Origin: Ferrimonas futtsuensis DSM 18154
GTDB taxonomy: Bacteria > Pseudomonadota > Gammaproteobacteria > Enterobacterales > Shewanellaceae
NCBI RefSeq assembly: GCF_000422645.1
Contig: NZ_AUGL01000010.1
Span: forward strand, 1-64,000
Length of the DNA stretch: 64,000 nt
Direction of reading: 5' to 3'
The notes under the pieces were generated by a model. That model was given only the letters and a program-made list of their open reading frames with translations. It ran no database searches and had not been told where the DNA came from. Of this stretch, positions 38,435 through 48,837 are shown piece after piece. Positions within the stretch are counted from its first letter, which is position 1; every line of letters begins with the position of its first letter. The translations under genes were made by a program, and so were the position numbers.

Positions 38435-38727
38435 GCGGTCCCCTCCCTCTAGCCAACAAGGAGTCTCCCGCGTGCGTGAGCCACCTTATGCCTCGGTCCC
38501 TGTCACGGAACTGACCCGGGACCAGGCTGATTTTGAGCCCGATCACAGCTCCCAGGCTGCCAGGATCACACTCTCAAACTCAGGTACACAATCGGCCTGT
38601 TTCGGGCTTTTTGTTACCTGTTTTGTACCCGGTTTCAGCATTACTTTCACAGGTGCACAAACCTTTTTGCCCAGGCGTTTAATCAGCCTCGGCACCAGAC
38701 TGTGTCACCTAACAAAGGGAAATGATG
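38435..38727 (+). promoter_or_regulatory. Control region of octaheme cytochrome 1
   Basis: About 290 bases without a gene. The distal end GTGTCACCTAACAAAGGGAA (38702-38721) is nearly repeated before the second octaheme gene (41521-41540, with CTA for ACA). CATTACTTT occurs about 80 bases upstream in both. These shared blocks indicate that the promoter regions were duplicated together with the genes. Confidence 0.5.
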
Positions 38728-40332
38728 ATGAAACGCTATGCGCTCAATGCGCCCCTGAAAACACTGACCGCAGCCATGCTGCTCAGCCTGCTGAGCGCCT
38801 GTGGCGGCGATAACGACAACAACGACGGCGGCGATCCTGTCGCACCCGGCAATACCCCTCCGGTCGCCAATCCCGTGGACGCCAGCGCCACCATGGGCAG
38901 CCCCAGCATGATTGATGCTCTGGCCAATGACACCGATGCCGACGGCGATGACCTCACCCTGGAGACCGTTACCCTGTTCGACGGCCGGGGTGTCGCCACC
39001 ATCGATGGCAACCGCATCCGCTTCGAACCCCTGGAGGTTGGGACCACCATCCTCAACTACAGCATCTCTGACGGCAACGGCGGCCACGCCAGCTCCACGG
39101 TCACCATCTCCGTATCCGCCCAGGCGCTAAGCTATGTGGGCTCAGAGGCCTGCCTCTCCTGCCACACCGACAAGAAGAGCTATCTGGAGACGGGCCACAA
39201 CTTTAAGCTGACCAAGGTGAACGGTGAAGAGCCCCTCTACCCCTTCACCTCCATCACCGGTGCACTGGATCTGCTGGATGTGCACAATACCCTGGGTAAC
39301 CCCAATGGCTGGGAGGACATCAGCTACGTGATTGGTGGCTACATGCGCAGCGCCATGTTCATCGACCAAAATGGTTACATCTTCTCGGGCGACAAGGCCG
39401 GTGTCGGCGTGGCGCCCAAAGGGGGGCAGGTACCCTATGCCTTCCCCTACAGTGCCAACGATGCTCCCGACTCCCACGGCTTCGATTACTGCGGCCGCTG
39501 CCACACCACAGGCTGGAGGGACTACACCGAAGGCAGTCACGACAACCGCAACCTCAACCGCCAGGATGACATGCCTGGCATGGGCGGCACCTTCGCCCTC
39601 ACCGGCATCCAGTGCGAAGCCTGTCACGGCGCCGGCCTGGCCCACATTCAAAAGCCTTCCAAAGACAACATCGTCAAGGTTGCCGAGCCCCGCTCCACTA
39701 ACGACTTCCTGGCAGAGGATATGGGCTTCGGCAAGCCTATCGCCTGCGCCGAGTGTCATAGCACCGATGATGCGGTAAGGCGCTATCCAGACTACGTGTC
39801 GCCTCATAACCAGGAGTTTGGCGGCGACAGCCTGGAAGCGCGGCTGAAGGTGATGACCGGCTTTGGCCCCGAAGGCCGTCGTGATGGCCGGGGTGGTCGT
39901 CAGGCGGCGACGGAACTGCTGGGCACCGATCCGGACACCGGCGAGGCCATGGGCAAGAAGAAGGGCTTCACCTGCTCAACCTGTCACAACCCGCATCAAT
40001 CCAAAGTCAATATGGATAAACCCGGCCACGAAAACGCCATGGTGCGCCAGTGTACCGACTGTCATACCCAGGCGTTCAACAACGCTCCGGGCAGTGACAT
40101 CGCCGCTGCAGCCCACGAGTTCACCGCCACGTGCCTCGATTGCCACATGCCCGGGGGCTCGGACTCGCACATGTTCAAGATCGATCTCGAGGGTGCCAAG
40201 GATGACCCAAGACACTTCTCGGCGAACGGTGACTACGTGAAACCCTGGCTGCGTGCTTACGACAGCTGCTCCGGCTGTCACGAGGAAGACTACGACGAGC
40301 GCGCTGCTCGCATTGGCACCATCCACAACTAA
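38728..40332 (+). CDS. Octaheme c-type cytochrome lipoprotein with Ig-like domain (copy 1)
   Basis: An exported multiheme cytochrome of about 534 residues. The lipobox is LLSAC, followed by an Asp/Asn-rich linker and one cadherin/Big_9-like domain (VANPVDASATMG ... NDTDADGDDLTLETV ... STVTISV). Eight CXXCH sites follow: CLSCH, CGRCH, CEACH, CAECH, CSTCH, CTDCH, CLDCH and CSGCH. It is not of OmcA/MtrC type, and the family is not one I can name. Three ATGs lie at 38722-38730, and AAAGGG fits 38725 or 38728. Its product should be an outer membrane-anchored electron carrier. It is paired with an AraC gene. The whole unit is repeated downstream. Confidence 0.9.
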   Translation: MKRYALNAPLKTLTAAMLLSLLSACGGDNDNNDGGDPVAPGNTPPVANPVDASATMGSPSMIDALANDTDADGDDLTLETVTLFDGRGVATIDGNRIRFEPLEVGTTILNYSISDGNGGHASSTVTISVSAQALSYVGSEACLSCHTDKKSYLETGHNFKLTKVNGEEPLYPFTSITGALDLLDVHNTLGNPNGWEDISYVIGGYMRSAMFIDQNGYIFSGDKAGVGVAPKGGQVPYAFPYSANDAPDSHGFDYCGRCHTTGWRDYTEGSHDNRNLNRQDDMPGMGGTFALTGIQCEACHGAGLAHIQKPSKDNIVKVAEPRSTNDFLAEDMGFGKPIACAECHSTDDAVRRYPDYVSPHNQEFGGDSLEARLKVMTGFGPEGRRDGRGGRQAATELLGTDPDTGEAMGKKKGFTCSTCHNPHQSKVNMDKPGHENAMVRQCTDCHTQAFNNAPGSDIAAAAHEFTATCLDCHMPGGSDSHMFKIDLEGAKDDPRHFSANGDYVKPWLRAYDSCSGCHEEDYDERAARIGTIHN

Positions 40333-40340
40333 AGCCAAGG

Positions 40341-40367
40341 GCCAGCGACAGTCGTCGCTGGCTTTCT
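40341..40367 (+). terminator. Terminator after octaheme cytochrome 1
   Basis: GCCAGCGAC (40341-40349) and GTCGCTGGC (40354-40362) with loop AGTC are followed by TTTCTCT. Confidence 0.8.
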
Positions 40368-40377
40368 CTAAGCTTAC

Positions 40378-40401
40378 TGACACCTCCCTCCGGAGGTGTC
40401 A
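40378..40401 (+). other. Perfect inverted repeat upstream of AraC regulator 1
   Basis: TGACACCTCC (40378-40387) and GGAGGTGTCA (40392-40401) form a 10-bp stem with a four-base loop and no T run. The same arm sequences recur, in reversed order, in the terminator ahead of AraC regulator 2 (43173-43201). It may be an operator for the regulator or a leader structure. Confidence 0.6.
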
Positions 40402-40432
40402 TCATTACAAGCAGGCTTTAACAGGAGATCTC

Positions 40433-41314
40433 GTGGACAACTGCGATCCCATTCCCGATGTCAGCTACCGGGCTCCGTCCCTCGAAGAGGCCGGATTAGA
40501 GATACTCGACCTCGAGCTGTTTCGAGCAAGGCTGAAGCGCTACCACTTTGACCCCTATCAGCCCCACAGGGTGAAATACTACTGCTTCCTGTACATCACC
40601 GAAGGTAAGGGGGAGCACCTGATCGACTTTGAGCGCTATCCCTATGACTCTGAGAGTGTCATCTTTATCAACCCAAACCAGGTGCACGCCTTCGATGTCA
40701 ATGATCGGCCCCAGGGTAAGATGATCAACATGACACCCTCCTTTTTTGCCGCCAGTGCCGCCAATATCCGTACCACCTATTTCATCCCCACCCACCTAAA
40801 CCGCGCCTCCTCACCGGTTCTTCACCTGTCTCCTCAGCTGAATCAGAGCTGCCACACCCTTCTGGAGGAGGTCAGGCTTGCCCAGCAGGAACGGGATAAG
40901 GACGACCTTGTAGTACAGCTGCTGTTTATCGCCCTTCTGGTCAAGTTGAGCCGTCAACGGCAGGGCCATATGGCCCACCTCAGCGAGCAGCAAAAGGAAC
41001 GTTTTGGCCTGTTTCTCAGCCTGGTTGAGCAGAATTTCGGTCAGCTCAGAGAAGCCTGTCAGTACGCCGCCCTGATGCACACCAGTTACAAAAGCCTCAA
41101 TCAGCTGTGCAAGAGTTGCTGCGGTCAGACCGCCAAGCAGCTTATCGACTTCCGCACCATTTTGGAGATAAAACGCAAGCTGGTAATGGACGGACTATCC
41201 ACCCAGGACATCGCGTCGGACCTCAGCTTTGAGGACACCAGCTACCTGAACAAGTACTTCAAGCGTCTGACCGGACAGACTCCGGCTGCCTTTAAACGAG
41301 ACAACGAGTTCTGA
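40433..41314 (+). CDS. AraC-family regulator paired with octaheme cytochrome 1
   Basis: A 293-residue transcription regulator. The N-terminal cupin-like sensor has YYCFLYITEGKGEHLIDFE and IFINPNQVHAF. The C-terminal double HTH of AraC type ends YLNKYFKRLTGQTPAAFKRD. The first HTH carries a Cys cluster, CKSCCG (Cys226, 229 and 230), where most family members have FKKxxG. Start at GTG 40433 is set by AGGAG five bases upstream and gives the same length as its paralogue. It probably controls the preceding octaheme gene. Confidence 0.88.
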   Translation: MDNCDPIPDVSYRAPSLEEAGLEILDLELFRARLKRYHFDPYQPHRVKYYCFLYITEGKGEHLIDFERYPYDSESVIFINPNQVHAFDVNDRPQGKMINMTPSFFAASAANIRTTYFIPTHLNRASSPVLHLSPQLNQSCHTLLEEVRLAQQERDKDDLVVQLLFIALLVKLSRQRQGHMAHLSEQQKERFGLFLSLVEQNFGQLREACQYAALMHTSYKSLNQLCKSCCGQTAKQLIDFRTILEIKRKLVMDGLSTQDIASDLSFEDTSYLNKYFKRLTGQTPAAFKRDNEF

Positions 41315-41546
41315 AAGCCGCAAGCCAAGCTGTTTCACCACTGAAAAGCAGCTTTTTGAGATCCAACCCCGGATAAGGCCACGGCGACGATCACATTCCC
41401 GTCACAGAGTACATTAACGGCAATTTTCGAGACTTTTCCGACCTGTTTCCGCGATGTGTTCACCATTACTTTTCCTATTGCACAGCCGGGCTCTGTTGGT
41501 CCCTGCAACCTCAGGCTCCCGTGTCACCTACTAAAGGGAAATGATG
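41315..41546 (+). promoter_or_regulatory. Control region of octaheme cytochrome 2
   Basis: About 230 bases without a gene, sharing CATTACTTT and GTGTCACCTA-TAAAGGGAA with the region before copy 1. No recognised global-regulator site was seen. Confidence 0.45.
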
Positions 41547-43157
41547 ATGATGAACCCCACCGCGCTCCATGCGCCCATGAAAACACTGACAGCCGCCATA
41601 CTGTTCAGTATGCTGACCGCCTGCGGCAGCGACGACAACAACGGAGAGTCCGTCACTCCTCCGCCTCCGCCGCCCCCACCGCCGGCAAACACCGCTCCAG
41701 TCGCCAACCCGGACACCGCCGAAGCGACCGTTGGCACGCCGGTCACCATAGACCTGCTGGCCAACGACACCGACGCCGATGGTGACCCCCTGACCCTGAC
41801 CCGGGTCGATCTGATCGAGGGAAGCGGCACCCTATCCATTGAAGACAATAAGCTTCTGTTTAATCCGGAATCTGCCGGTGAAGCCAAGCTGACCTACGCC
41901 GTCAGCGATGGTCAAGGAGGGGAAGCCTCTTCGACAGTCACCATTAACGTAGAAGCCAAACCCGTGGCTCAGCTGAGCTATGTGGGTACTCAAGCCTGTC
42001 TGACCTGCCACGGTGACAAGGAGATCTTCCTGGAGTCCGGCCACCCCTTCAAACTCAACAAGGTGGTCGATGGCGAGATGCCCGAATATCCGTTCACCAA
42101 CATCATCGGCGCACTGGAGATGCTGGAGGGCGTAGTCAACCCGGGCGGCGCGCCAACCAGCTATGAAGATGTCTCCTACGTCATCGGTGGCTACAAGAAG
42201 CAGGTGATGTGGCTGGACCTGGATGGCTATCGCTACACCGGTGACAAGGTTATCGGCAAGCTCGACGAAACCGGCTACGTCTATGAGATGTGGTCATGGG
42301 GAGATAACCTGGGGCCGGAGCGAGCACCATTCTACTGCGGCCGTTGTCATACCACAGGCTGGAAGGATTTCACCTCTGAAGAGGGCGATGATCGTAACCC
42401 CCACCACCAGGACGGCATGGAGGGAATCCTGGGCACCTTCGATCAAACCGGAGTCCAGTGTGAGTCCTGCCACGGGGCAGGTAGCGAGCACATCAAAGCC
42501 CCATCCAGCAGCAACATTACCCGCCTGGCCGAACCTCGCACCGTGGCGCAGATGAAGGCGGACGATCAGGCCTTTGGCCAAGCGGTAGCCTGCGTTGAGT
42601 GCCATACCCACGGTGGTGACAAGTCCTACCCAGAGTATCTGACCGAATACACCGAGAAGTTTGGCGGTAACGATGCCGTCGGAGGCCTGATTGCCAGAGA
42701 TGCGGGGGGCCGTGGTGGCCGTGGTGGCCGTATTGCCGCCGACACCATGATGGGCTATAACCCCGAAACAGGGGTGGCCGAAGGCAAGAAACGCAATATG
42801 CACTGCAACACCTGCCACGAAAGCCATATGTCCACCCACTTCAGGGATAAGCCTGGACACGAAGACGGCTTGAAGAAAGCATGCACGGATTGTCACCAGA
42901 TGGAATTTGCCAATGCCGAAGGCGGTAACGGCCTGGCTGCCATGGTGCACGGCGGCGCCGACTGTACCAGCTGTCATATGCCGAGCCAGTCACACCTGTT
43001 TAAGGTGGACATCTCGGCTCCCTCTGAAGATGGTCACCACTACTCCGAAGACGGAGAGTACAGCCAACCCTGGTTGCGCCCCTCTGACTCCTGTCAGGGC
43101 TGCCATGCCGAGGACTATGACGCTCGAGCCGCTAAGATGAAACAAGTACACCTCTAA
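41547..43157 (+). CDS. Octaheme c-type cytochrome lipoprotein with Ig-like domain (copy 2)
   Basis: A paralogue of the first octaheme protein, about 536 residues. The lipobox is MLTAC, then an Asp/Asn segment and a run of nine prolines. The Big_9-like domain follows (VANPDTAEATVGTPVTID ... DTDADGDPLTL). The eight heme sites are CLTCH, CGRCH, CESCH, CVECH, CNTCH, CTDCH, CTSCH and CQGCH, matching copy 1 in order and spacing. A Gly/Arg loop (GGRGGRGGR) sits before heme 5 in both. The region between heme 1 and heme 2 differs most, so the partners or acceptors may differ. Four ATGs lie at 41541-41552, and AAAGGG fits 41547. Confidence 0.9.
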   Translation: MMNPTALHAPMKTLTAAILFSMLTACGSDDNNGESVTPPPPPPPPPANTAPVANPDTAEATVGTPVTIDLLANDTDADGDPLTLTRVDLIEGSGTLSIEDNKLLFNPESAGEAKLTYAVSDGQGGEASSTVTINVEAKPVAQLSYVGTQACLTCHGDKEIFLESGHPFKLNKVVDGEMPEYPFTNIIGALEMLEGVVNPGGAPTSYEDVSYVIGGYKKQVMWLDLDGYRYTGDKVIGKLDETGYVYEMWSWGDNLGPERAPFYCGRCHTTGWKDFTSEEGDDRNPHHQDGMEGILGTFDQTGVQCESCHGAGSEHIKAPSSSNITRLAEPRTVAQMKADDQAFGQAVACVECHTHGGDKSYPEYLTEYTEKFGGNDAVGGLIARDAGGRGGRGGRIAADTMMGYNPETGVAEGKKRNMHCNTCHESHMSTHFRDKPGHEDGLKKACTDCHQMEFANAEGGNGLAAMVHGGADCTSCHMPSQSHLFKVDISAPSEDGHHYSEDGEYSQPWLRPSDSCQGCHAEDYDARAAKMKQVHL

Positions 43158-43172
43158 GGTACTTGGGTTCGG

Positions 43173-43207
43173 GAGGTGTCAACGATTCAAGTTGACACCT
43201 CTTTTTT
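43173..43207 (+). terminator. Terminator after octaheme cytochrome 2
   Basis: GAGGTGTCAAC (43173-43183) and GTTGACACCTC (43191-43201) make an 11-bp stem with a T run. The arms carry the same core as the inverted repeat at 40378-40401, in swapped order. Confidence 0.92.
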
Positions 43208-43222
43208 CAACAAGGAGCCTAG

Positions 43223-43258
43223 ATGCTTCTGCACAGCTACTATACCGGATCCTCTTGA
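43223..43258 (+). CDS. Possible 11-residue leader peptide upstream of AraC regulator 2
   Basis: A short frame encoding MLLHSYYTGSS begins at ATG 43223 behind a strong ribosome site, AAGGAG (43212-43217, five-base spacing). It ends at TGA 43256-43258. It is in the same frame as the AraC gene, which begins 12 bases later with only a weak site of its own. Translational coupling or a sensing leader is possible. No comparable peptide precedes AraC regulator 1. Confidence 0.45.
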   Translation: MLLHSYYTGSS

Positions 43259-43270
43259 GAAGCCTGACAA

Positions 43271-44152
43271 ATGGATAGAACTGACGACATTCCCCAAATC
43301 ACCTACGACAGCCCTCAGCTGCGTAAAACAGGCATGGATGTACTGGATCTTGAGGAGTTTCTTCAGGATATCTGTGACCAGGGCGCCAATCCCTACCAAA
43401 CTCACAGGGTCAGTCATTTCTGTCTTATTTTTGTGGAGCAGGGTGAAGGTGAGCACTTCATCGATTTCCACTCCTACCACTATGAACCGGACTGCATCAT
43501 CTTTCTCAACAAAGAGCAGATTCATGGGTTCGACAGAGAGAACAGGATCAAAGGCAAGCTGGTGCTGATGACCAGAGAGTTCTTCTCTGCCAGCTCCGCC
43601 AACATTCGCACCTCCTACTTTGTCCCGGTCCATCAAAGCCTGAGCGCCTTTCCGGTACTCCACCTCTCCACAGAGATGAATGAAAGCTGCAAGGCGATGC
43701 TGACCGAGATGATGCGAGCACTGAACGAGGGGCCGGACAGCGGCGTCATAGTGCAACTTCTGCTGTCAGCCATGTTGCTCAAACTGGCCAAGCAGAGAGA
43801 GAGTCATCTTATCCACCTGAGTGAACAGCAGAAAGAGCGTTTCGGCGAGTTCCTGCGCCTGGTGGATGAGCATTTCACCGAGATCCGCGAGGCGAGCCAG
43901 TATGCCCAGTTGATGCACAGCAGTTACAAATGCCTGAACCAGATGTGTAAAACCTGCTGCGGCCACACAGCCAAACAGCTGATCGATTTTCGGATCATTC
44001 TGGAGATCAAACGCAAGCTGACCATGGACGGACTCTCGGTCCAGGACGCTGCCTTTGAATTGGGATTTGATGACATCACCCACTTTATCAAGTACTTCAA
44101 ACGCCACACAGGAAAAACCCCGGCGGCCTTCAAACGTGAGCTGGAGGGTTGA
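43271..44152 (+). CDS. AraC-family regulator paired with octaheme cytochrome 2
   Basis: A 293-residue paralogue of the regulator at 40433-41314, of identical length. The cupin sensor has FCLIFVEQGEGEHFIDFH and IFLNKEQIHGF. The double HTH ends FIKYFKRHTGKTPAAFKRE. The CKTCCG cluster (Cys226, 229, 230) in the first HTH is conserved. The two regulators agree best in the C-terminal half and differ more in the N-terminal sensor, which suggests similar operators but different inputs. The ribosome site is weak (GAGAAG), and a leader peptide with a strong site precedes it. Confidence 0.88.
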   Translation: MDRTDDIPQITYDSPQLRKTGMDVLDLEEFLQDICDQGANPYQTHRVSHFCLIFVEQGEGEHFIDFHSYHYEPDCIIFLNKEQIHGFDRENRIKGKLVLMTREFFSASSANIRTSYFVPVHQSLSAFPVLHLSTEMNESCKAMLTEMMRALNEGPDSGVIVQLLLSAMLLKLAKQRESHLIHLSEQQKERFGEFLRLVDEHFTEIREASQYAQLMHSSYKCLNQMCKTCCGHTAKQLIDFRIILEIKRKLTMDGLSVQDAAFELGFDDITHFIKYFKRHTGKTPAAFKRELEG

Positions 44153-46582: not shown

Positions 46583-46895
46583 TAAATACAAAGAAGTAGC
46601 ATCACCCTTTATTCCAATTAGGATTCAGGGCCCGCGACTCCGATCCGGTAAATAGTGAAAATGCAGCCTAAAGTAGCCTCGAATATGTCAGAATTGATCA
46701 ACTGATATATTGAACATATCCCTCATCTGCATCAATTTCACTTATTGCAAGAATCAAAAAATCAGTCACTTATGGCAGGTTTTGGCCGATTTAACAACAA
46801 AGAAAGTACAGAATTCAACGCAGTTCTGTGATTTGCGTCAGGAAACCCCTATCTGCAATACCGTATAGTTGCACAAAACCGATATGGGCCCGGTG
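46583..46895. promoter_or_regulatory. AT-rich control region of tandem LysR-like regulators
   Basis: About 310 bases without a gene, distinctly AT-rich. TTGATCAA (46694-46701) is a perfect 8-base palindrome. No terminator for the upstream phosphodiesterase gene was found. The regulator promoters must lie here. Confidence 0.4.
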
Positions 46896-47864
46896 ATGGA
46901 CAGACTTAAAGACATCAATATTTTCTCATTCCAGGTGTTTGTGCTCGTCTATGAGTCACTGAACTCCCTCAGTGTTGCCCAAACCCTGAATGTGCCTGCC
47001 TCCAAGATCAGCCGCTGCCTCAACAGCCTCCGTCATGCTCTGGATGACCCACTGTTTTACCGCAAACAATACGGGTTTGAGCCCAGTGAGATGGCCACGC
47101 GCATCTATCCTGAGATGAAGAAGATCCTGGAGCTGGCTGGGCAGGCGTGCACCGTAGACATGGACGACAACAACCGGCTGAAGCAGGAGTTGACCATCGC
47201 CTGCCCTACCGGCCTGTGTGTCAGGCTGTCCCGGAGCCTTCAGGAACATGCCCAGCGGCATGACCAACACTTCACCTTCATCGTCAAACCCATCAATCAT
47301 CATGTGGATAACGAGATCCAGCATGGCAACGTGGATGTGGCCATCTCCTTCGAGCCCAGCAACTCTGAAGGGGTGAAGAGTGAATTTGTCACCAAGGGGA
47401 CCGGACTCTATGTGGCGGGCGGTCACGACCACCCCATTTGGCGGCGCGCTTCCCAGCCACAGCTGACGGAGATCATCGACTACCCCTTCATTGTGGCCGA
47501 TTGCCCTGCCTTCAATGATCGCATCGATCCTCTGGAGGTATACGCCAATGACATCGACCGCAGCCTGGAGGTTGAGGTCAAGGTCAGCGGGCTGACGGAA
47601 CTGGCGGATCAGCTGGACAACTCATCCAGCCTCACCTTTGTGGGCCAGAAATACGCCGCCGAGTTTCTGAGTCGCATGTCCGATCTCAAGGTCCGGCGTC
47701 TGCCCCAGGATCAGTTTGATCTGCTGCACCAGCGCATGGGGGTTCCCAGCTACTTCCTGCTGAGCCCCCCCCGAGGACGGAACCTGCCGGAGTGGCTGCT
47801 GCCGGCCATCAGTGAATTTGTGACCAGCACGGTGGTCCTGCCTGAAGTCGGCGAAGAGGAGTAA
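46896..47864 (+). CDS. LysR-like regulator (cytochrome-associated family)
   Basis: A 322-residue regulator. Its LysR-type HTH (INIFSFQVFVLVYESLNSLSVAQTL ... DDPLFYRKQYGFEPSEMATRIYPEM) is nearly the same as that of the regulator at 56367-57320. A ligand-binding domain follows (ELTIACPTGLCVRLS). The frame is open upstream to 46869, but alignment with the paralogue supports ATG 46896; the ribosome site is poor. It is followed after four bases by another family member. The target is unknown. Confidence 0.82.
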   Translation: MDRLKDINIFSFQVFVLVYESLNSLSVAQTLNVPASKISRCLNSLRHALDDPLFYRKQYGFEPSEMATRIYPEMKKILELAGQACTVDMDDNNRLKQELTIACPTGLCVRLSRSLQEHAQRHDQHFTFIVKPINHHVDNEIQHGNVDVAISFEPSNSEGVKSEFVTKGTGLYVAGGHDHPIWRRASQPQLTEIIDYPFIVADCPAFNDRIDPLEVYANDIDRSLEVEVKVSGLTELADQLDNSSSLTFVGQKYAAEFLSRMSDLKVRRLPQDQFDLLHQRMGVPSYFLLSPPRGRNLPEWLLPAISEFVTSTVVLPEVGEEE

Positions 47865-47868
47865 CAGA

Positions 47869-48837
47869 GTGCCAGCAACCAACATAGATAAACTGAAAGA
47901 CATCAACCTCTTCGTCATCCGGGTATTCTGCCTGGTGTTTCAGCACGGTAACTCCATCGCCGTCGCCAGCATCCTGGACGTGCCGCCCTCGAAGATCAGC
48001 CGAAGCCTGAATGCCCTGAGGCAATCATTCTCAGACCCGCTGTTTATCCGTCGTCAGCATGGGTTCGAACCCACTCCGCTCTCCTGTCGTCTCTACCCCA
48101 TCCTCAGCCGGCTTCTGGGGGAGTCTGAATCGGTCGCGGCCATCAGCCACTTTCAGGAGATGGATCAGCACAAGAACCTGCACATCGCCACACCACCTCA
48201 ACTGGCGATCAACCTGATTCAGAAGGTCCGGCGGGCTTCGGAGACCCATGACGATCCCCACAGTGTCCACCTGCGGATGTTCAATGACTCCAGTCTGGAT
48301 GACCTGGCGGCCAACAGAACCGATGCGATTCTCAGCTTTACGCCGGCAGAGCGCGATGGGGTAATCTCCAAGGCGATCGCCTCCCCCAAGAAGGTGTTCC
48401 TGGTGGCCAGGGAAACCCACCCGGTCTGGCATAATCCGGTGCTGGAGGAGATTGCCCGTCACCCGCAGATCCTCTATGGCAACAGCTGCTACCCCAACAG
48501 CCAGTCACCGATGAAGTTCTACTGCCGCCGCAAGGGCGTTCCCTTCAGGCTGGACTCCATCGCCTCAGACATGGGGGCCGTTGCCCATTCACTGCAGGAG
48601 TCCGACGCCCTTTCCGTGCTGGAGTTTGATTCCTGCGCCAATTTCTTCAGGGAATTTAAGGGCCTTAAGGCGATTCAGCTCAGCTCCGAGCAGTTTGATG
48701 AGCTGGTGAGCTACAAGACCCCGAAAACCATCTATCTGTGGCTCAGGCATGACAGCGATGGCAGGGTCACCACCCCCTTCTGGCTGCAGCAGATCCTTGA
48801 GCAGCATATCCGTCAGGCACTGGGCCAGGCCAGTTAG
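47869..48837 (+). CDS. LysR-like regulator (second of tandem pair)
   Basis: A 322-residue LysR-like regulator: N-terminal HTH (INLFVIRVFCLVFQHGNSIAVASIL ... SDPLFIRRQHGFEPTPLSCRLYP) and a ligand-binding domain. The C-terminal half is closest to the double-HTH regulator at 23705-24919, sharing ARETHPVW, SQSPMKFYCR, FREFKGLK and IYLWLRHDSDGRVTTPFWLQ. GTG is the start, with GAGGAG in the end of the upstream gene. Two different family members in one transcript suggest that they act as a pair, perhaps as heterodimers. Confidence 0.85.
   Translation: MPATNIDKLKDINLFVIRVFCLVFQHGNSIAVASILDVPPSKISRSLNALRQSFSDPLFIRRQHGFEPTPLSCRLYPILSRLLGESESVAAISHFQEMDQHKNLHIATPPQLAINLIQKVRRASETHDDPHSVHLRMFNDSSLDDLAANRTDAILSFTPAERDGVISKAIASPKKVFLVARETHPVWHNPVLEEIARHPQILYGNSCYPNSQSPMKFYCRRKGVPFRLDSIASDMGAVAHSLQESDALSVLEFDSCANFFREFKGLKAIQLSSEQFDELVSYKTPKTIYLWLRHDSDGRVTTPFWLQQILEQHIRQALGQAS

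Follow-up and report, generated by a model that had tools for sequence, protein, structure and literature searches.

The closest described relatives of the cytochromes discussed here are found in the OcwA/MccA/NrfA multiheme superfamily, whose members share a heme-domain fold. OcwA of Thermincola potens (6i5b) and the undecaheme cytochrome of Carboxydothermus ferrireducens (6qvm) carry nine and eleven hemes, respectively. According to PMC6703420, heme 2 of OcwA is open beneath His281-His282, and the octaheme sulfite reductase MccA/SirA (4rkm) has copper at its active site. Another study (PMC10376724) connects OcwA/OmhA to the octaheme enzymes that reduce sulfite and tetrathionate. The window analysed here, the whole stretch of 64,000 nucleotides from Ferrimonas futtsuensis DSM 18154 (positions 1 to 64,000 of NZ_AUGL01000010.1), holds two adjacent cassettes within 38435-44152, each with a gene for an octaheme lipoprotein followed by one for an AraC regulator. 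These four genes (cytA, AraC-A, cytB and AraC-B, all on the + strand) had been picked out by a sequence-only reading of the same DNA. By alignment, the two cytochromes belong to a clade that has Gly-Arg or Ala-Arg at the position of the OcwA His-His pair.

Fold family and the heme-2 position

The gene cytA (38722-40332, + strand) encodes a lipoprotein of 536 residues with a Big_9 domain at residues 44-130, an octaheme domain and the pair Gly392-Arg393. The product of cytB (41541-43157, + strand), with 538 residues, has the same layout, Big_9 at residues 50-136 and Gly-Arg at the equivalent position, as had been noticed earlier. Each protein has a lipobox cysteine (residue 27 in cytA, 28 in cytB) and exactly eight CXXCH motifs, with no CXXCK and no other cysteine, and profile search finds Big_9 with E 2.8e-13 in cytA and 2.1e-19 in cytB. 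The two are 49% identical over 545 columns.

A structure model of the octaheme, predicted from a deep alignment of 63 sequences (A3), has a predicted local distance difference test score (pLDDT) of 91.7. Its sole strong matches in the PDB are OcwA, 6qvm and MccA, and sequence-profile comparison agrees, so that by the predicted model the shared fold of the superfamily is present. In alignment, hemes 1-4 correspond to hemes 1-4 of OcwA and the last four to its hemes 6-9. OcwA heme 5 is missing, as it also is from MccA (PMC6703420).

The relatives were gathered in a scan that gave at least 79 loci. From the matches listed (95 rows, duplicates merged), 76 cytochromes were taken from Ferrimonas, Shewanella, Paraferrimonas and a record titled Marinobacter, with hits below 190 bits and distant loci excluded; one locus, G010:C11, was entered as L124. 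At the columns of cytA 392-393, His-His is found in OcwA, in 30/30 relatives linked to two-component systems and in 26 of the 29 distant sequences used as outgroups for this comparison (five of which also entered the cytochrome tree). The clade whose members adjoin an AraC, MarR or LysR gene, or none of the regulators sought, has GR or AR there in 46/46. A later check covered 40 newly fetched regions from 77 places, picked to favour unsampled genomes. It yielded 42 cytochromes, 17 of them already counted or repeated, and the 25 new clade members all have GR or AR and all eight hemes. The clade total is 71/71 for (G/A)R, 71/71 for eight CXXCH and 0/71 for CXXCK. The clade is also without the K.A...GD loop stretch that follows heme 7. 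Judged from the alignment, the Gly/Arg loop is a predicted active-site change at the heme-2 position. With His-His exchanged for (G/A)R and the loop lost, the His-His relatives should therefore have another substrate or chemistry than this clade, and the arginine suggests a small oxyanion as a possible substrate.

Described systems differ in several ways. The clade has neither the nine hemes nor the His-His over heme 2 of OcwA-type terminal reductases (71/71). Unlike OcwA and 6qvm, its members are lipoproteins, usually with a Big_9 domain, and have a regulator gene beside them. In MccA/SirA one heme is bound by an expanded motif, CX(n)CH; in the lipoproteins cytA and cytB all eight motifs are CXXCH, and every cysteine after the lipobox belongs to one of them. 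The MccA/SirA copper has cysteine ligands, and in 70/71 clade members, cytA and cytB included, the heme domain contains no cysteine outside the heme motifs and hence no Cys-bound copper. NrfA and ONR nitrite reductases are marked by a CXXCK active-site heme, and that motif occurs in none of the 71. Ferrimonas, Shewanella and Paraferrimonas also have octaheme lipoproteins that are linked to two-component systems (C1:368754 in the same genome). These resemble cytA in family, lipoprotein layout and sequence (39-46% identity); they keep His-His, and an upstream histidine kinase and response regulator (30/30) stand in contrast to the AraC of cytA and cytB.

The view that the cytochromes are not of OmcA/MtrC type holds: neither matches the NCBIfam OmcA/MtrC model (TIGR03507) up to E 0.1. 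Those decahemes come from the same bacterial group and are likewise multiheme lipoproteins, but the OcwA/MccA fold matches are far stronger for cytA and cytB. A weak resemblance of cytA to the Pfam MtrC/MtrF domain stays below cut-off, 5/21 members of A2 reach E <= 0.001 for that domain, and one distant relative, L139, matches the OmcA/MtrC NCBIfam model weakly, far under its cut-off. It had further been claimed that no named system has this layout. Searches of the open-licence PubMed Central literature showed none, nor any description of the AraC/octaheme pairing or of the clade with arginine in place of His-His. The broader octaheme family, however, is already published without a function: the superfamily tree of PMC7829351 labels one cluster "octahemes of unassigned function", and cytA and cytB may or may not belong to it.

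A lipobox is present in 70/71 clade members, with Gly at +2 in 61/71, a combination that fits a predicted outer-membrane location. Matches to cytA at E <= 1e-90 occur in 37 of 152 genomes of the same bacterial family and are confined to two genera; the count includes the two weakest places, in G090 and G151, which may be of the His-His kind. An order-wide draw of 295 genomes gave four matches at E <= 1e-40, all four within the window's own family. Among the matches listed, more distant relatives extend to Planctomycetota, Verrucomicrobia, Chloroflexi, Woeseiaceae and others. Some of these distant relatives (L119, L126, L136 and L149) are parts of longer reading frames in which 16 to 26 CXXCH occur, apparently as fused multihemes.

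Regulator partners and the age of the cassettes

AraC-A (40433-41314, + strand) and AraC-B (43271-44152, + strand) are both 293 residues long, the former only with the GTG start at 40433 that was picked through alignment to AraC-B; the listing of open reading frames has a longer frame from 40253. Both match HTH_18 and AraC_binding above cut-off and so carry the AraC-type helix-turn-helix and ligand-binding domain of the AraC/XylS family, with 54% identity over 292 columns. Against the HpaA equivalog model, AraC scores lie far under the cut-off.

Regulators were sought within 1,300 bases of each cytochrome with AraC, histidine kinase, response regulator, MarR and LysR profiles, for each of which one or two sequences served as the basis; a count of "none" refers to these kinds only. 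In the set of 76, a histidine kinase and a response regulator lie upstream of 30 cytochromes, an AraC adjoins 30, a divergent MarR six and a LysR two, and eight have none. The AraC gene is downstream in 19 of the 30 cases (convergent rather than co-directional in L047) and upstream only in the other 11. The 25 later additions gave 22 with AraC, two with MarR and one with none. Adjacency to AraC is kept across two genera and in both gene orders, and pairing with a regulator is conserved well beyond this locus. Homologs without AraC, whose common occurrence the sequence-only reading had named as refuting a distinct system, do exist, namely the 30/30 His-His relatives with two-component systems and, in the clade, 10/71 with MarR or LysR and 9/71 with none; what is conserved is therefore pairing with some regulator rather than with AraC alone.

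Rooted on the outgroup, the cytochrome tree (a quick tree) has the two-component state at its base and the AraC/MarR/LysR clade nested within, with Shimodaira-Hasegawa-like approximate likelihood ratio (SH-aLRT) support of 90 for the fork and 100 for the clade. Within the present sampling this places the residue switch, loop loss and regulator exchange on one branch. Divergence of the partners is correlated. For 30 cytochrome-AraC pairs, taking the downstream AraC where present and otherwise the upstream one (the L044 AraC is truncated at the end of its contig), the distance matrices correlate with r 0.674, a value equalled or exceeded in 0/5000 permutations. For genomes with several cassettes, the true partners score highest among 2304 arrangements.

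The cassettes had been described as a tandem duplication. Two related cassettes do lie side by side, but a recent local event is not supported, since tree tests make cytA and cytB old paralogs. In a tree of the 76 cytochromes and five outgroups, the orthologs of cytA cluster with proteins from Shewanella and from other Ferrimonas; those of cytB fall elsewhere in the clade, where support is only 83. An exclusive clade of four cytA and four cytB orthologs was rejected (approximately unbiased test, p-AU 0.003; 60 log units worse, quick tree). A clade of cytB with the wider cytA group (which adds 13 Shewanella/Ferrimonas relatives of cytA) was not rejected, with p-AU 0.55 and a likelihood slightly above that of the free tree. 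In the AraC tree, a group that contains AraC-A and two Shewanella AraCs excludes AraC-B. The cassette pair is kept together in the own genome (G000, 4.3 Mb in 39 contigs), in the closest genome G011, where cytA is 99% identical, and in G005 and G008, which have one extra AraC copy each.

Other arrangements were also seen. At two Shewanella loci (L085, 4364-8212, and L176, 4194-8029) two cytochromes stand in a row behind one AraC gene. In the own genome (contig C1; L039, 6700-11633), a His-His paralog stands between an upstream histidine kinase with its response regulator and a downstream gene for a SLAC1-type anion channel. Elsewhere in the window, at 46869-48837, lie two adjoining LysR-type regulators that by eye resemble the LysR replacing AraC beside the L089 and L116 cytochromes.

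Leader block, putative box and hairpins

The cassettes share an upstream block, as had been claimed. It is 30 nucleotides long, 93% identical, and lies directly over the ribosome site and start codon. This leader block, GTGTCACCTA..AAAGGGAA plus the first codons, occupies 38702..38731 at cytA and 41521..41550 at cytB (both + strand); in four genomes it can still be recognised, with changes, ahead of the orthologs of both genes. Third codon positions are 74% alike across the leader and first 34 codons (38702-38823 and 41521-41642) and 33-47% alike over the rest of cytA and cytB; because the likeness is concentrated in this way, a constraint at the nucleotide level is suggested.

Further upstream is a putative operator/promoter box, TTCAnCATTACTTT-N6-TGCACA, used as a pattern for genome-wide scans. 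It lies at 38634..38659 ahead of cytA and at 41459..41484 ahead of cytB (+ strand), starting 82-88 nucleotides before the cytochrome start codons. With up to three mismatches the pattern occurs in its own genome at these two sites only (reversed-pattern control 0) and in 14 related genomes at 20 sites (reversed control 4). In the related genomes, sites with up to two mismatches fall at the cytA-cytB locus in 7/7 cases, and those with three in 2/13. In G012 and G005 the box precedes an AraC gene with no cytochrome in between, as though a cytochrome gene had dropped out and only the AraC under control had remained.

The gaps between cytochrome and AraC genes can fold. Between cytA and AraC-A, two successive hairpins (40339..40401, + strand) form a possible attenuator; for the fold of 40333-40435 z is -5.0, with 0/200 shuffles equally stable, and a terminator scan reports the first hairpin on the - strand only. 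Between cytB and AraC-B, a hairpin followed by a T run (43173..43207, + strand) is terminator-like by eye, of the intrinsic kind. The fold of 43158-43270 has z of -3.0 with 2/200 shuffles equally stable, and the terminator scan gave no entry for this hairpin.

What the cassettes may do

We lean, if only slightly, toward reading each cassette as a self-regulated respiratory module in which an outer-membrane octaheme reduces an acceptor at an Arg-bearing heme 2. The AraC protein, with its cytoplasmic cupin-type ligand domain, would probably sense a soluble, cell-permeant compound (electron acceptor or product) and activate transcription from the putative box. The transcript would run through the cytochrome gene and partly past the hairpins into araC, giving autoregulation. 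The cytochrome would be held at the outer membrane, putatively on its outer face, as a lipoprotein, spaced from it by an acidic linker and the Ig-like domain, with an octaheme domain of the OcwA/OmhA-MccA-NrfA superfamily in which hemes 1-4 would match the c554-like half of OcwA. Electrons would pass along the heme chain to an open heme 2, the active-site heme in OcwA and MccA, and the acceptor would be reduced there. Each pair may be a module tailored to one particular chemical. We propose more tentatively, and with some doubt, that the clade is an undescribed class of terminal reductase, in which heme-2 His-His has given way to Arg, the loop has been lost and the ancestral two-component partner has been swapped for AraC, MarR or LysR, and whose acceptor-specific modules were later copied, relocated and re-wired across Ferrimonas and Shewanella.

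A number of observations weigh against such a module. No electron donor and no porin were found among the scanned neighbour genes of the cassettes. The heme-2 assignment comes from sequence alignment and heme order, the predicted model being heme-free. Conserved histidines, His436 (46/46, and also 13/17 His-His relatives in one alignment) or His465 (42/46), at columns that depend on the alignment, could close heme 2. The perfect box match in the window is true by construction of the pattern, and no copy of it turned up at the AraC cassettes of G002, G003, G007, G009 and G013 or ahead of cytB in G008; the box thus characterises only the cytA-cytB locus and the closest relatives of that locus and does not mark the clade in general. 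The pairing counts are raw, uncorrected for chance neighbours, and in 9/71 clade members every regulator sought is missing. AraC and cytochrome trees also partly disagree. The AraCs upstream of the Shewanella cytochromes L044, L082, L083, L085 and L086 cluster with the AraCs that belong to L090-L093, L101 and L115; the L047 AraC clusters with other Ferrimonas AraCs; in both cases the cytochromes behave differently. Partners have therefore probably been exchanged at times.

A general surface conduit seems to us rather unlikely. In that reading the octahemes would, like OcwA, hand electrons to an electrode, to flavins or to minerals without being specific for any substrate, and the regulators would report redox or nutrient state only. 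It would accord with the Gly at +2 of the lipobox, and some relatives from other phyla do adjoin other multihemes. A solid acceptor, however, is out of reach for a cytoplasmic AraC, four regulator families, often paired, fit separate signals, and the invariant heme-2 change argues for a conserved pocket.

We regard as improbable that the cassettes detoxify a reactive small molecule (nitrite, NO, hydroxylamine or peroxide), with the regulator sensing stress. The fold family does reduce nitrogen oxides, and OcwA is slow on nitrite (PMC6703420). At three Shewanella loci, L092 (8611-11263), L093 and L101, a flavorubredoxin gene (Pfam-checked in L092, called from N-terminal sequence in the others) directly follows the AraC-linked cytochrome, and a gene that by eye looks reductase-like comes next. 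Yet this is 3/5 of the judgeable members of the subclade (the gene is absent in L090 and L115, and the L091 contig ends there), and no flavorubredoxin was seen beside the cassettes of the window. That the AraC genes are unrelated neighbours without control over the cytochromes is very improbable: members without a regulator, the partial disagreement of the trees and two clade AraC genes (L069 in G012, L070 in G003) away from any cytochrome within the 20 kb fetched would favour it, but the correlated divergence with the within-genome swap test, the adjacency conserved over two genera in both gene orders and the shared putative box argue against it.

The Shewanella relatives have many multiheme cytochromes without known substrates, and here a regulator gene adjoining the cytochrome gives a handle on the cytochrome's inducer. 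His-His versus Gly-Arg, a one-position contrast between two groups within one family, offers a direct test of the selectivity of the heme-2 pocket, and it suggests a route from an extracellular-type reductase to an enzyme for a specific compound.
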